A stretch of 64,000 nt of DNA from Globomyces pollinis-pini (taxonomy: Eukaryota > Chytridiomycota > Chytridiomycetes > Rhizophydiales > Globomycetaceae): contig MU621112.1 of the NCBI GenBank assembly GCA_025399215.1, positions 47,443 to 111,442 on the forward strand, read 5' to 3'. Below the pieces are notes generated by a model. It saw nothing but the letters and a program-made list of their open reading frames with translations. It had not been told where the DNA came from and did not search any database. Below are positions 6,965 through 64,000 of this stretch, in pieces. Made by a program: the position numbers and the translations under genes. How positions within the stretch are numbered: the first letter of the stretch is position 1; each line of letters begins with the position of its first letter.

Positions 6965-7516
6965 TCAATTGCCGCATTTGGTGCTAAAATCGCGAACAGT
7001 AGAAAATTTCCATTGCAAATTGGTACCTGCACAAACTGAGATCATCAGTTCATCCTTGCTTGGATTGGTATCAAAAATACCAAATCCTAATTGTTCAAAA
7101 GCACTAGCCATATCGTCTAAACTGTAGCCTTCCCTTTTCCAATCTGCCATTAATTCTAACGGTTGCTTAGAAAGTGAGCAAACAGTGTTAAAGAAACTAG
7201 TTGGGGTAGATGCAGCACAGTAGCCATGTTTTTCCCATTCATGCTGTTGGAAATCTTTGTCAGTATAACACGGAACAGTAGGCATAGGTTGATTCTTGTT
7301 TCCTCCAACACAAGCAGAATTACCAAATTGACCATTTTCAGGCCATAACCCATGAACTACTGGTGTGTCATGATAGTAATTTCCTGGCCCATCTCCCCTT
7401 TCAAGAGTCAAAACACCACAATACTTTGCACGACCACAATCCATCTTATCAGCGCGTTTGATGACAAAGGCAGAGATTGTTACAAGTAGAGTAGAAAGAC
7501 TGTATAAAGAAACCAT
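6965..7516 (-). CDS. Secreted RNase T2 family ribonuclease
   Basis: Single exon, 183 residues. It starts with a short hydrophobic segment (LYSLSTLLVTISAFV) that looks like a signal peptide, so the enzyme probably acts outside the cell or in the vacuole. Both catalytic boxes are present: VVHGLWPENG (CAS I, with its histidine) and HEWEKHGYC (CAS II, with His, Glu, Lys and His). Several cysteines (CGRAKYC, ACVGG, PCYTD, VCSL, VCAG, TKC) can form disulfides. The family cleaves single-stranded RNA through a 2',3'-cyclic phosphate. It is shorter than many fungal T2 enzymes (often about 230 residues), but both catalytic boxes are intact. A TATA-like element lies 34 bases upstream of the start. Confidence 0.93.
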   Translation of the reverse strand: MVSLYSLSTLLVTISAFVIKRADKMDCGRAKYCGVLTLERGDGPGNYYHDTPVVHGLWPENGQFGNSACVGGNKNQPMPTVPCYTDKDFQQHEWEKHGYCAASTPTSFFNTVCSLSKQPLELMADWKREGYSLDDMASAFEQLGFGIFDTNPSKDELMISVCAGTNLQWKFSTVRDFSTKCGN

Positions 7517-24261: not shown

Positions 24262-24924
24262 TTAATGAATACTGCATCTACGTTGATGCTTTCTCTTACA
24301 AACCCCTTGAGCATCATTGATTACAATAGTGGGATCTGGATTAATTGGGAATTGACATTCAAGGCCAGATTCACATTCAATTCCAATAAGTCCACCACAT
24401 ACTTGATTCAATTTGGCAGGTTTGTGGATATTAGCTGTAGAAACACTTTTACAAATCCCTTGAGCGTCATTGATTACAATGGTTGGATCAGGATTGACTG
24501 GGAATTGACATTCAAGCCCAGATGCACATTCCAGTCCCATGAGTCCTCCACAAACTCCATTCAAGGAGACAGGTGAATGGACAGTAGTCATTCGTTTACA
24601 AACACCTTGTGCATCATTGATAACAATAGTTGGATCAGGGTTTGTTGGGAATTGACATTCAAGGCCAGATTCACATTCAATTCCAATAAGCCCACCACAA
24701 ACTTGGTTAAGCTTGGCAGGGTTGTGAATAGTATCGCGTTTACAAATTCCTTGAGCATCATTGATCACAATTTTTGGATCAGATTGAACCGGTAAAACAC
24801 ATTTTAAACCTTTCTGACAGTGAATGCCCATAATTCCACCACAAACACCATTCAAAGGTGATTGCTGTTTAATTGGAGCAGATACAACGAGAGAAGCAAG
24901 AATGAGAGTATTGATGAATTGCAT
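24262..24924 (-). CDS. Secreted protein with four Cys-rich repeats and KR sites
   Basis: Single exon, 220 residues. A signal peptide (MQFINTLILASLVVSAP) is followed by four tandem units starting near residues 24, 72, 121 and 172, each 48-51 residues. Every unit has the pattern LNxVCGG, then C-x7-C-x5-C-x18-C, and a near-invariant core DPxIVINDAQGxCK. Units 1, 2 and 4 end with the dibasic KR, unit 3 with KS. The spacers between units are short and polar (for example DTIHNPAK). Units 2 and 4 are the closest pair, which points to internal duplication. I do not recognise the domain. A Kex2-type protease could cut at KR and release separate disulfide-linked peptides; that is inference. A related gene begins at 63908. 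Confidence 0.88.
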   Translation of the reverse strand: MQFINTLILASLVVSAPIKQQSPLNGVCGGIMGIHCQKGLKCVLPVQSDPKIVINDAQGICKRDTIHNPAKLNQVCGGLIGIECESGLECQFPTNPDPTIVINDAQGVCKRMTTVHSPVSLNGVCGGLMGLECASGLECQFPVNPDPTIVINDAQGICKSVSTANIHKPAKLNQVCGGLIGIECESGLECQFPINPDPTIVINDAQGVCKRKHQRRCSIH

Positions 24925-25229: not shown

Positions 25230-26902
25230 CTAATTCCCAGATGTATCAAAGTTATACTCCCATCTCTTTTCTAAATGGCCCAATGCAGTATCACTCAACA
25301 CAACCAATCGTCTTCGATTGACATATTCAGTTTTATCTAATACATTCTTTCGCAATTCAGATGCATTTTCGGCAGTGATTTCTGTTTCCAACATTCCTGA
25401 TAGATTTTCAACTGCCATTTCCAAGTCTCGTTGGTTATCTTCAAATAGGGCTGTTGCTAATGATTGGCGAGATAGATAAAAGGCAAGAGCATATGTCCAC
25501 ATTAATGTTTGCCGTGATTCCATTAATACATCCACTGCACTTTTAAGAAATTGAACTTGAATCCATGAAAATTCACTCGATTGTTGCATTTCCTCCATCT
25601 TCTTTTCTGTTCGCTCATACAACTCTTTATCAAGTTTTGCAGATTGTTCATGGTTAGCATAACGATTATAATACTAGAATGTTAATAATTTCAAGACTGT
25701 ACATGTAAATATCTTTCCAGTGCTTGTCTAGATTTAGCTTGACTGTCTCTAGCATCTACACTCTCTTTCTCTTCAAATCGATTGCAAGAGTACCATGAAG
25801 TACCATGATCACTCCAAGGTCCATGACAAATCCAACAGAACTAATTGATTGGTTAAAACATTAAGCTTACCTCGTGTTTACACTTTCTACAAGTCATATG
25901 GTTGCATCCTCCATTCTTTTCAATAATAGAATTACATTTTGTACATTCTTTTGTATTTGCAGCAATCCAATTGGAAGTTTCAGAATCATCAGCACATTTT
26001 TTCAACCATAATTTCACAACTGCACAGGTAATAGGTTCATGATCATTTAAACCACAATAAAAACAAAATAAATGACCACTTGAACATTTTACGATTGGAA
26101 TAATTTGATCTACATCCACATGATTTAAATTACATTCTACAGCATTCTCACAATTTGGAGCTGGACACCATTTCAAAGATTTGCGGTCGTCTACATAAGT
26201 TCTCAACAGTAAAGTTTCATATCTACCATTAATAAACTGAAATTACTTTGCAAAGACTTCAGGAGAGACAATTGATTGAACAGTTTTTTCATCCACCTTT
26301 AAAGGGCAACTTCCGGGACAGGATATATGTCTAGATTCACCTTCTTCGGTGATCTTTTGTTGAAGATAAAACCTATAGCAATCCACACAAAATCGATGTT
26401 TACAGGATAGTGCCATAGTTAAAAGTCCTTCTTCATCATTCAAGCAAATTTCACAACAGAAATCTAAACCAGTTAGTAAATTGAATTGAATTTGAGGGAT
26501 TGAATTGTAATAATAAATTATTGATTAATACAAACCTTTGATTGGACAAATGATAGGTTTATCAACTGCTGATATGATGACACCAGCATCAGCAGTAACT
26601 TTTTCAGGATTTTCCATATAAGATTCGATTAATTTTTCTTTATTCCATTTGAAGTATCTTAATAAAGTAGCAGCTGTTTCATTTAAACAACCTAATATTC
26701 CACTGACATGATTTATTTCGATTGATTGAAATTGTTTTATATCATTTATAGTATAAGGTTTAAAATCTACATGATAAGATTTTTTGAGATCTTTATCATT
26801 TTGAATAGGAGAGAACATTAAATCATTTTCATCATCAGTATCTGAATGAATGAAATCATGATCATCTTCATCCATTGTACAATAATCATCCTCTGAGTCC
26901 AT
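25230..26902 (-). CDS. RBR-type E3 ubiquitin ligase of the Ariadne family
   Basis: RING-HECT hybrid ligase. The acidic N-terminus (MDSEDDYCTMDEDDHDF) is typical. RING1 carries CKHRFCVDCYRFYL and CPGSCPLKVDE. The IBR domain has WCPAPNCENAVEC and CSSGHLFCFYCG. RING2 has ECTKCNSIIEKNGGCNHMTC, where the Cys of GGCNHM is the expected catalytic thioester residue, followed by FCWICHGPWSDHG after splicing. The C-terminal Ariadne domain includes RQTLMWTYALAFYL and LEKRWEYNFDTS. In the family it is autoinhibited by this domain and activated by neddylated cullin-RING ligases; CSN7, part of the complex that removes NEDD8, lies 6 kb away. About six short introns. Confidence 0.94.
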
Positions 26903-52654: not shown

Positions 52655-53805
52655 ATGTCAAAGGAAAAGGTTGCGATTATTGGATCTGGAAACTGGTAAG
52701 TTGCTATTGATGTCAAGATCTTATTATAGGGGTTCTGCCATAGCTAAAATTGTGGGTCGCAATGTTACCAATTTTCCTGAAATTGATAATGAAGTAATTA
52801 AATTTAATCAACTTATTCATAGGTTCGTATGTGGGTATTTGAAGAAATTTATCAGGGAAAACGATTAACTGAGATCATCAATACTACACATGAAAATGTA
52901 AAGTATCTTCCAAATATTCCATTGCCAAAAAATATTGTTGCTGTCCCAGAATTGTTGAAGGCTGTAGAGGGTGCTACTTTGCTTATATTTGTAGTTCCAC
53001 ATCAATTTGTAAAAGGTTGTTGTGAGCAACTGTACGATCGATTGGAGCCAAATGCCCGTGCCATTTCTTTAATTAAAGGTGTGGATGTGAGTAATGATGG
53101 GTTACAGTTAATATCTGACGTTATTGGAAGTCATCTAAATATCGACGTTAGTGTTTTAATGGGAGCTAATATTGCAAATGGAGTTGCAAAGGATGAATTT
53201 TGTGAATCAACAATTGGTTATAACATTTTAAGTAATGCAGAACAATTTTACAAACTATTTAATACCAAATACTTCCGAATTAGTATGGTAGAAGATGTAG
53301 CTGGAGCTGAATTGTGTGGGGCATTGAAAAATGTAGTCGCCATTGCTGCTGGATTAGTAGATGGGCTAAAATGTGGAGATAATACCAAAGCAGCTATCAT
53401 TCGTCTGGGATTAATGGAGGTATTTTTCAACACAACTGATATTCTCAGATGCGAAAGTTTTGTAAAGCATTTTATGCAGGAGTAAAAGATGAAACGTTTT
53501 TTGAAAGTTGTGGAGTTGCTGATTTAATTACCACTTGTTCTGGTGGCCGTAATAGACGTGTTGCTGAAGCGAGGGTATTAACAGGAAAGTCATTCGAAGT
53601 TTTGGAAAAGGAATTATTAAACGGACAAAAATTGCAAGGTTCCGGTACAAGCAAAGAGTTGCATCAAATTTTAAAAGATAAACATCTCATTCATGAGTGA
53701 GTCCATCATATATTTTCTAATTATTTTAGATATCCTATGTTTACCACTGTTTACCGCATATGTTATGAAGGTTTAAATCCTGCTGCCATTTTGGAAGAAA
53801 TTTAG
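52655..53805 (+). CDS. GPD1: NAD-dependent glycerol-3-phosphate dehydrogenase
   Basis: Reduces dihydroxyacetone phosphate to glycerol 3-phosphate with NADH, feeding glycerolipid synthesis and cytosolic redox balance. [14 protein letters not shown] joins [11 protein letters not shown] across a 34-nt intron to form the GxGxxG dinucleotide site. Further marks are [40 protein letters not shown], and [21 protein letters not shown], which includes the catalytic Lys region. After an intron [10 protein letters not shown] precedes [19 protein letters not shown]. The C-terminus reads [20 protein letters not shown]. Length is about 345 residues. The start has no targeting peptide, so it is cytosolic. 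Confidence 0.95.
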
Positions 53806-63857: not shown

Positions 63858-63907
63858 ATTTCAACGATCTTATCAACTTCTGAACTTTAATTTATTACTT
63901 ATTTATC

Positions 63908-64000
63908 ATGCTATTATCAATTATTTTATCCTACGTCGTCTTGGCTGTCCCTGTTCAAAAGCCAGCTCAATTAAATGGTGTCTGTGGTGGATTCTTGGGA
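63908..64000 (+). CDS. Second secreted Cys-rich repeat protein (5' end only)
   Basis: The ATG at 63908 opens MLLSIILSYVVLAVPVQKP, a signal peptide, followed by AQLNGVCGGFLG, the same start as the repeat units in the protein at 24262-24924 (LNGVCGGIMG, LNGVCGGLMG). The window ends after 31 codons, so the number of repeats and the KR sites cannot be seen. The gene shares the TATA-CCCCCAC promoter element. The two genes are about 39 kb apart, so they are not a tandem duplicate. Confidence 0.8.
   Translation, partial: MLLSIILSYVVLAVPVQKPAQLNGVCGGFLG

Follow-up and report, generated by a model that had tools for sequence, protein, structure and literature searches.

The window analysed here, a stretch of 64,000 nucleotides from Globomyces pollinis-pini, holds a gene for a protein of four cysteine-rich units, some of them followed by the dibasic pair KR. 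The question this locus raises is whether such a protein would be a precursor, cut into small secreted peptides, or whether the array of units would itself be the working form. Globomyces is a genus in the Rhizophydiales (Chytridiomycota). For one strain of G. pollinis-pini, pine pollen is given as the isolation source (PMC9381765).

The four-unit gene

The sequence-only reading had described a signal-like N-terminus followed by four C-x7-C-x5-C-x18-C units, without naming a strand; both features are present, on the minus strand (Table 1), the spacing being found in all four units with repeat steps of 48, 49 and 51 residues, and three of the units (1, 2 and 4) do end in KR, as had been stated. 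An in-frame upstream ATG would lengthen the frame to 25098 (278 aa), the signal-like start being the one at 24924. The 220-residue protein begins with MQFINTLILASLVVSA-PI, in which a hydrophobic core is found (best 9-residue Kyte-Doolittle mean of 2.73 among the first 12 starts, while no such mean exceeds 1.78 beyond residue 25), and this hydrophobic start suggests that the protein may be secreted. The cores of units 1 to 4 are, in order, DPKIVINDAQGICK, DPTIVINDAQGVCK, DPTIVINDAQGICK and DPTIVINDAQGVCK, and there is neither Trp nor Tyr in the whole protein.

Table 1. Positions, within the window, of the four-unit gene, its parts and two further features
Feature	Position	Strand	Basis or remark
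Coding sequence, single open exon, 220 aa + stop	24262..24924	minus	translation
Signal-peptide-like N-terminus, residues 1-16	24877..24924	minus	hydropathy; cut after SA judged by eye
Unit 1, C1 to C4, residues 28-61	24742..24843	minus	then KR (residues 62-63)
Unit 2, C1 to C4, residues 76-109	24598..24699	minus	then KR (residues 110-111)
Unit 3, C1 to C4, residues 125-158	24451..24552	minus	then KS, without dibasic site
Unit 4, C1 to C4, residues 176-209	24298..24399	minus	then KR (residues 210-211)
C-terminal tail KRKHQRRCSIH	24265..24297	minus	further RR and lone 17th Cys
Glycerol-3-phosphate dehydrogenase exon	52829-53482		
Further family member, start only (signal-like start, then ...LNGVCGGFLG)	63902..64000	+	= G000:C23:111344-111442

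When the four-unit protein was used as a single-sequence query, none of the 272 database candidates scored reached E ≤0.001, and the gene may be missing from the deposited annotation or may have been overlooked by a search of this type. As regards its surroundings, the nearest minus-strand open frames are of the RING/IBR/Ariadne type, with a weak HEAT match; at 25230-26902 (-), adjoining the four-unit gene, lies a ubiquitin ligase gene of the RING-IBR-Ariadne type, in pieces separated by introns. A link to the neighbouring genes was considered and rejected, there being no sign of a cluster. Elsewhere in the window, at 6965-7516 (-), there is an open frame whose translation has a signal-like start and reads like that of a secreted T2-type ribonuclease.

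Paralogs and the growth of the array

The genome contains at least two intact paralogs and at least two cut-off copies, counts that are to be taken as lower bounds. An intact paralog of four units on contig C297 is 52% identical to the window protein and is without its C-terminal tail, ending in CVPL; the other, on C49 (G000:C49:19598-20209), has five units, is more distant, and has a shorter last loop (x12). One cut-off copy is the start at the far end of the window, which matches the C297 paralog at 74% identity in its first 33 residues and is interrupted by the end of the contig; the other (G000:C297:994-1092) runs into a stretch of N. Because the two copies end in this way, breaks in the assembly would seem to be due to the near-identical repeats, and a copy number above those counted is possible.

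That selection acts on the unit had been proposed from the sequence, and this is borne out by the dN/dS values between the units of the window gene, which range from 0.03 to 0.39 over the six pairs (by the simple Nei-Gojobori method, on short sequences) and are therefore below 0.4 in every pair; units 2 and 4, for example, are separated by 8 synonymous differences and 1 nonsynonymous difference. These six values, together with the 52%-identical paralog on another contig, confirm that the pattern of the units is more than chance. At the nucleotide level, the unit pairs within the window gene are 69-91% identical and those between the window gene and the C297 paralog 58-65%, and within the latter, units 1-3 are 93-95% identical to each other, with unit 4 only 64-65% identical to units 1-3. 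As the units of one gene are mostly closer to each other than to those of the other gene, this suggests that, with the exception of unit 4 of C297, they were duplicated or exchanged inside each gene after the two genes had split. The array would thus have grown by duplication of units inside the gene, and the similarity of the units would have been maintained by purifying selection and probably also by exchange between them.

A module of fungi and bacteria

The sequence-only reading had presented the pattern as one without named kin, and had put forward a profile search as a check. With a profile made from the three intact proteins of the genome, and with the 7994 best word-sharing candidates scored, 13 relatives were found at E ≤0.01, some of them in other fungi and in bacteria, in such a way that the pattern can no longer be said to stand alone; the absence of a well-fitting Pfam or NCBIfam name was upheld. 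The relatives include an 8-unit protein of Chytriomyces hyalinus (HDU77_001843, P0002; E 5.6e-17), a protein of a Myxococcota bacterium (E 2.8e-9), and proteins of the ascomycetes Lentithecium fluviatile (E 2.1e-5), where the counterpart of the INDAQG stretch reads ...AVSDAQGICK, and Verticillium albo-atrum (E 5.3e-4); one homolog, P0010, also carries Kazal domains.

What the window gene, its paralogs, Chytriomyces, the ascomycetes and Myxococcota have in common is the module CGG-x5-C-x2-GL-x-C-...-G-x-C, mostly in tandem. In an alignment of 34 hand-picked units, 10 of them from the Globomyces genome (near-duplicates dropped) and 24 from the homologs, of which 10 out of 13 contributed (all but P0005, P0012 and P0014), the invariant elements are CGG, the x7/x5 cysteine spacing, C2, C3 and the final G-x-C, and the L before C3 is nearly constant; CGG, x7/x5 and the G-x-C at C4 are found in 4 of the 4 units of the window protein. 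The tandem modules of Chytriomyces, Lentithecium, Verticillium and Myxococcota are like these units in the x7 and x5 spacings, in the GL before C3 and in the G-x-C at C4, but the last loop in those units of the homologs that are module-like has 6-17 residues as against 18 in the window protein.

Some of the five units of the C49 paralog are about 60% identical to units of a Myxococcota gene (L018:3001-3105), with which they have in common the loop GQPAPTG-x-C, a likeness that could be explained by an old common module, by transfer or by convergence. The idea of a C4-loop subtype in common with Myxococcota was set aside, a genome scan having given 83 pattern stretches, a single one of them a relative, at the already known locus. 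The Myxococcota gene sits between reading frames that, from their translations, are SMC-like and ATP-synthase beta-like, and because these neighbours look bacterial, it would be a truly bacterial gene. With members in chytrids, ascomycetes and bacteria, the module must therefore predate the window gene and extend beyond it. An origin from viruses or phages was rejected: the module pattern gave no match in the viral contigs, tblastn gave none in phages, and PHROG yielded weak matches at E ≤1, the best being 0.0037. No name was found for the tandem CGG-x5-C-x2-GL-x-C family, the NCBIfam scan gave no match up to E 10, and no paper joining PF05980 and fungi was found in the literature. In summary, the window protein is a real, conserved member of a widespread and poorly named module family.

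Dibasic sites and the mode of action

Cutting after KR would leave, besides a tail, three pieces, of 47, 48 and 100 residues (cutting at KR/RR, fragments of 47, 48, 100, 5 and 4), with units 3 and 4 still joined, and the set of near-identical peptides that had been envisaged has to be abandoned, given that unit 3 is without KR. When the mature protein was shuffled with its Cys residues kept in place, at least three KR anywhere were obtained in 127 of 100,000 shuffles, and at least three directly after a fourth Cys in 0 of 100,000, figures in which the three KR are not independent events, because the units are duplicates. Among the relatives, neither intact paralog (C297, C49) has a dibasic site; KR directly after a unit, a point on which the homologs differ from the window protein, occurs in 0 of the 13; and the 8-unit Chytriomyces protein has nothing dibasic between its units, its only such site being a KK at the very end. 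An Arg is retained at nearly the same place in the C297 paralog (CKPR, CKPR, CKSR), KK follows the first unit in the homologs P0003-P0005, and one KR lies inside a linker of the Verticillium homolog P0014, all of which may count as mild evidence toward cleavage. Cleavage is possible in the window copy, yet, since the intact paralogs are without dibasic sites and the homologs without KR directly after a unit, it is not the defining feature of the family.

The explanation that competes most directly is that a Golgi convertase cuts after KR and releases three secreted disulfide peptides, two of them single units (47 and 48 residues) and one a two-unit piece of 100 residues. It would account for KR after three of the four units, where the Arg is kept with three different codons (CGC, CGA and AGA) while the residues that follow differ, and for the lone Cys of the tail being located beyond two dibasic sites. 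The genome has proprotein-convertase P-domain matches at one place, in two pieces on contig C72, which, read from its P-domain, we take for a Kex2-type gene. The published rules for Kex2-processed repeat proteins require either at least four fragments after KR/RR cutting, at least three of them similar (PMC6339444), or, between dibasic sites, a minimum of three repeats each 8-100 aa long (PMC7329392); judged by hand and not via the published scripts, the window protein comes within both, barely, with three similar fragments, the third of which is made up of two units and just reaches the limit of 100 aa. Chytrids are reported to hold many KEPs as well as longer peptides, and because 14 of the 19 chytrid strains surveyed in PMC7329392 had KEPs, the label is not a rare one in Chytridiomycota. 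The window protein resembles the KEPs of these two papers in its signal-like start, its repeats and the KR between some of them, but it differs in that KR does not follow every unit and is absent from the paralogs, and in that its units have the size of a folded domain and have homologs in uncut arrays and in proteins of bacteria. A further criterion, added here and outside the published rule, was that sites should lie between all the repeats and be kept in relatives, and on this the protein departs from a processed precursor, with KS after unit 3 and with paralogs and homologs such as those described above. Moreover, in units that are at least 62% identical, two inter-unit residues staying the same is unremarkable in itself, and no XA or XP dipeptide is found behind the KRs. 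Thus, of the processing into peptides that had been suggested from the sequence, the KR sites, the P-domain gene and a borderline passing of the rules stand in its favor, while the confinement of KR to the window copy goes against it; release of this kind is rather unlikely, and cleavage as the main mode of action would deserve about a quarter of our credence.

The remaining explanations depend on resemblance to known domains. That the unit would be a reduced CBM1-like knottin, lacking the aromatic face normally present and binding to cellulose or some other glycan, is very unlikely: the CGG...C-x5-C...C layout is that of CBM1 domains (PF00734), and six CBM1 matches in the genome exceed the cut-off, several of them on open frames that look to us like cellulases, but when the unit profile was compared by hhalign with the six CBM1 rows the probability was 5.5%, CBM_1 matched 1 of 34 units (E 0.99), the protein is without Trp or Tyr, and the CBM1 domains of this genome have six Cys with a CC pair, as against the four Cys, without CC, of the unit. 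Membership of CBM1 was rejected, in view of the non-significant profile comparison and the missing aromatic face. A channel or protease inhibitor resembling a spider toxin, as would be indicated by the Pfam label Toxin_7 (whole-protein score of 30.7 bits, cut-off 27) and by the Kazal partner in P0010, is highly improbable. The Toxin_7 score is probably the sum of added repeats, as 0 of 11 single units match at E ≤1 and 3 of 34 in the wider set (best E 0.01), and a genome-wide Toxin_7 search did not return the window locus and gave nothing over the cut-off; on these grounds the label is likely to be false. RHIM also comes over the cut-off on the window protein (21.8 against 20), so that matches to short models are loose here, and both labels probably arise because short models are here applied to a protein made of repeats. 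The mini-module of the IGFBP N-domain (IGFBP-5, 1boe, 1h59) is like the unit in the GL before C3 and the G-x-C at C4, with C-x6-C-x5-C-x19-C in place of C-x7-C-x5-C-x18-C; this candidate was rejected, since the PDB match went from E 0.095 with 11 units to 4.4 with 34 and was not listed with the 6 closest units, and Pfam IGFBP gave no match up to E 10 on the window protein.

The reading preferred here, in which our confidence is about even, is that of a secreted array of two-disulfide modules that would act mainly intact, as a protein of the chytrid's coat, wall or matrix, or as one that binds to surfaces. This is argued for by the tandem arrays of the C297 and C49 paralogs, in which there is no dibasic site, by the lack of such sites between the units in Chytriomyces, and by the presence of an array in Myxococcota. 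Each unit would most likely fold alone, with two predicted disulfides, perhaps paired C1-C3 and C2-C4, and the four would work mainly uncut; the KR after units 1, 2 and 4 would be a trait of the window copy that may permit partial trimming, for instance of the tail with its lone Cys, and cutting at KR would not be the purpose of the family.

An analogy for such a way of working, although not a family relationship, may be found in the CREMP modules (C-X4-C-X5-C-X8-C), described as structural coat proteins of the eggshell membrane, and in the C-X4-C-X5-C-X6-10-C repeats of slime-mould spore coats, described in the same source as structural coat proteins (PMC3068167). As far as that source goes, these too are secreted tandem four-Cys modules with a C-x5-C core, whose repeats break genome assemblies, as those of the window family seem to do; on the other hand, they have C-x4-C and a shorter loop where the window units have x7, x5 and x18, the spacing C-x4-C-x5-C-x8-C is found in none of the latter, and only the C-x2-G-x2-C part aligns. 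The best PDB match of the 34-unit profile is a four-module CREMP (9pgb; E 3.4e-4), and two column-shuffled controls that retained the Cys spacing gave no match at E ≤10, but this score adds up four weak module matches (i-Evalues 8.6-27), none significant singly. With the profile of the six closest units the match falls to E 2.2, no better than chance, as the best values of the shuffled controls were 1.5 and 2.2. It is because of these four weak matches to the C-x2-G-x2-C part, and of the chance level of the six-unit profile, that CREMP is used as an analogy only.

The repeat pattern is thus that of a module spread over fungi and bacteria which no Pfam or NCBIfam model named well in these scans, and the Pfam label Toxin_7 of the window protein is probably misleading. 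In addition, this case is a warning that proteins with tandem domains can also be caught by the in-silico KEP rule. A rather unlikely possibility is that an ancient, normally uncut module has become a convertase-processed precursor, one paralog having gained KR and now releasing folded two-disulfide mini-proteins, its sisters staying intact; if so, a coat or binding module would have become a diffusible peptide within one gene family. In any case, the pair of genes with and without KR offers a natural test of whether secreted repeat arrays turn into peptide precursors by gaining cut sites.
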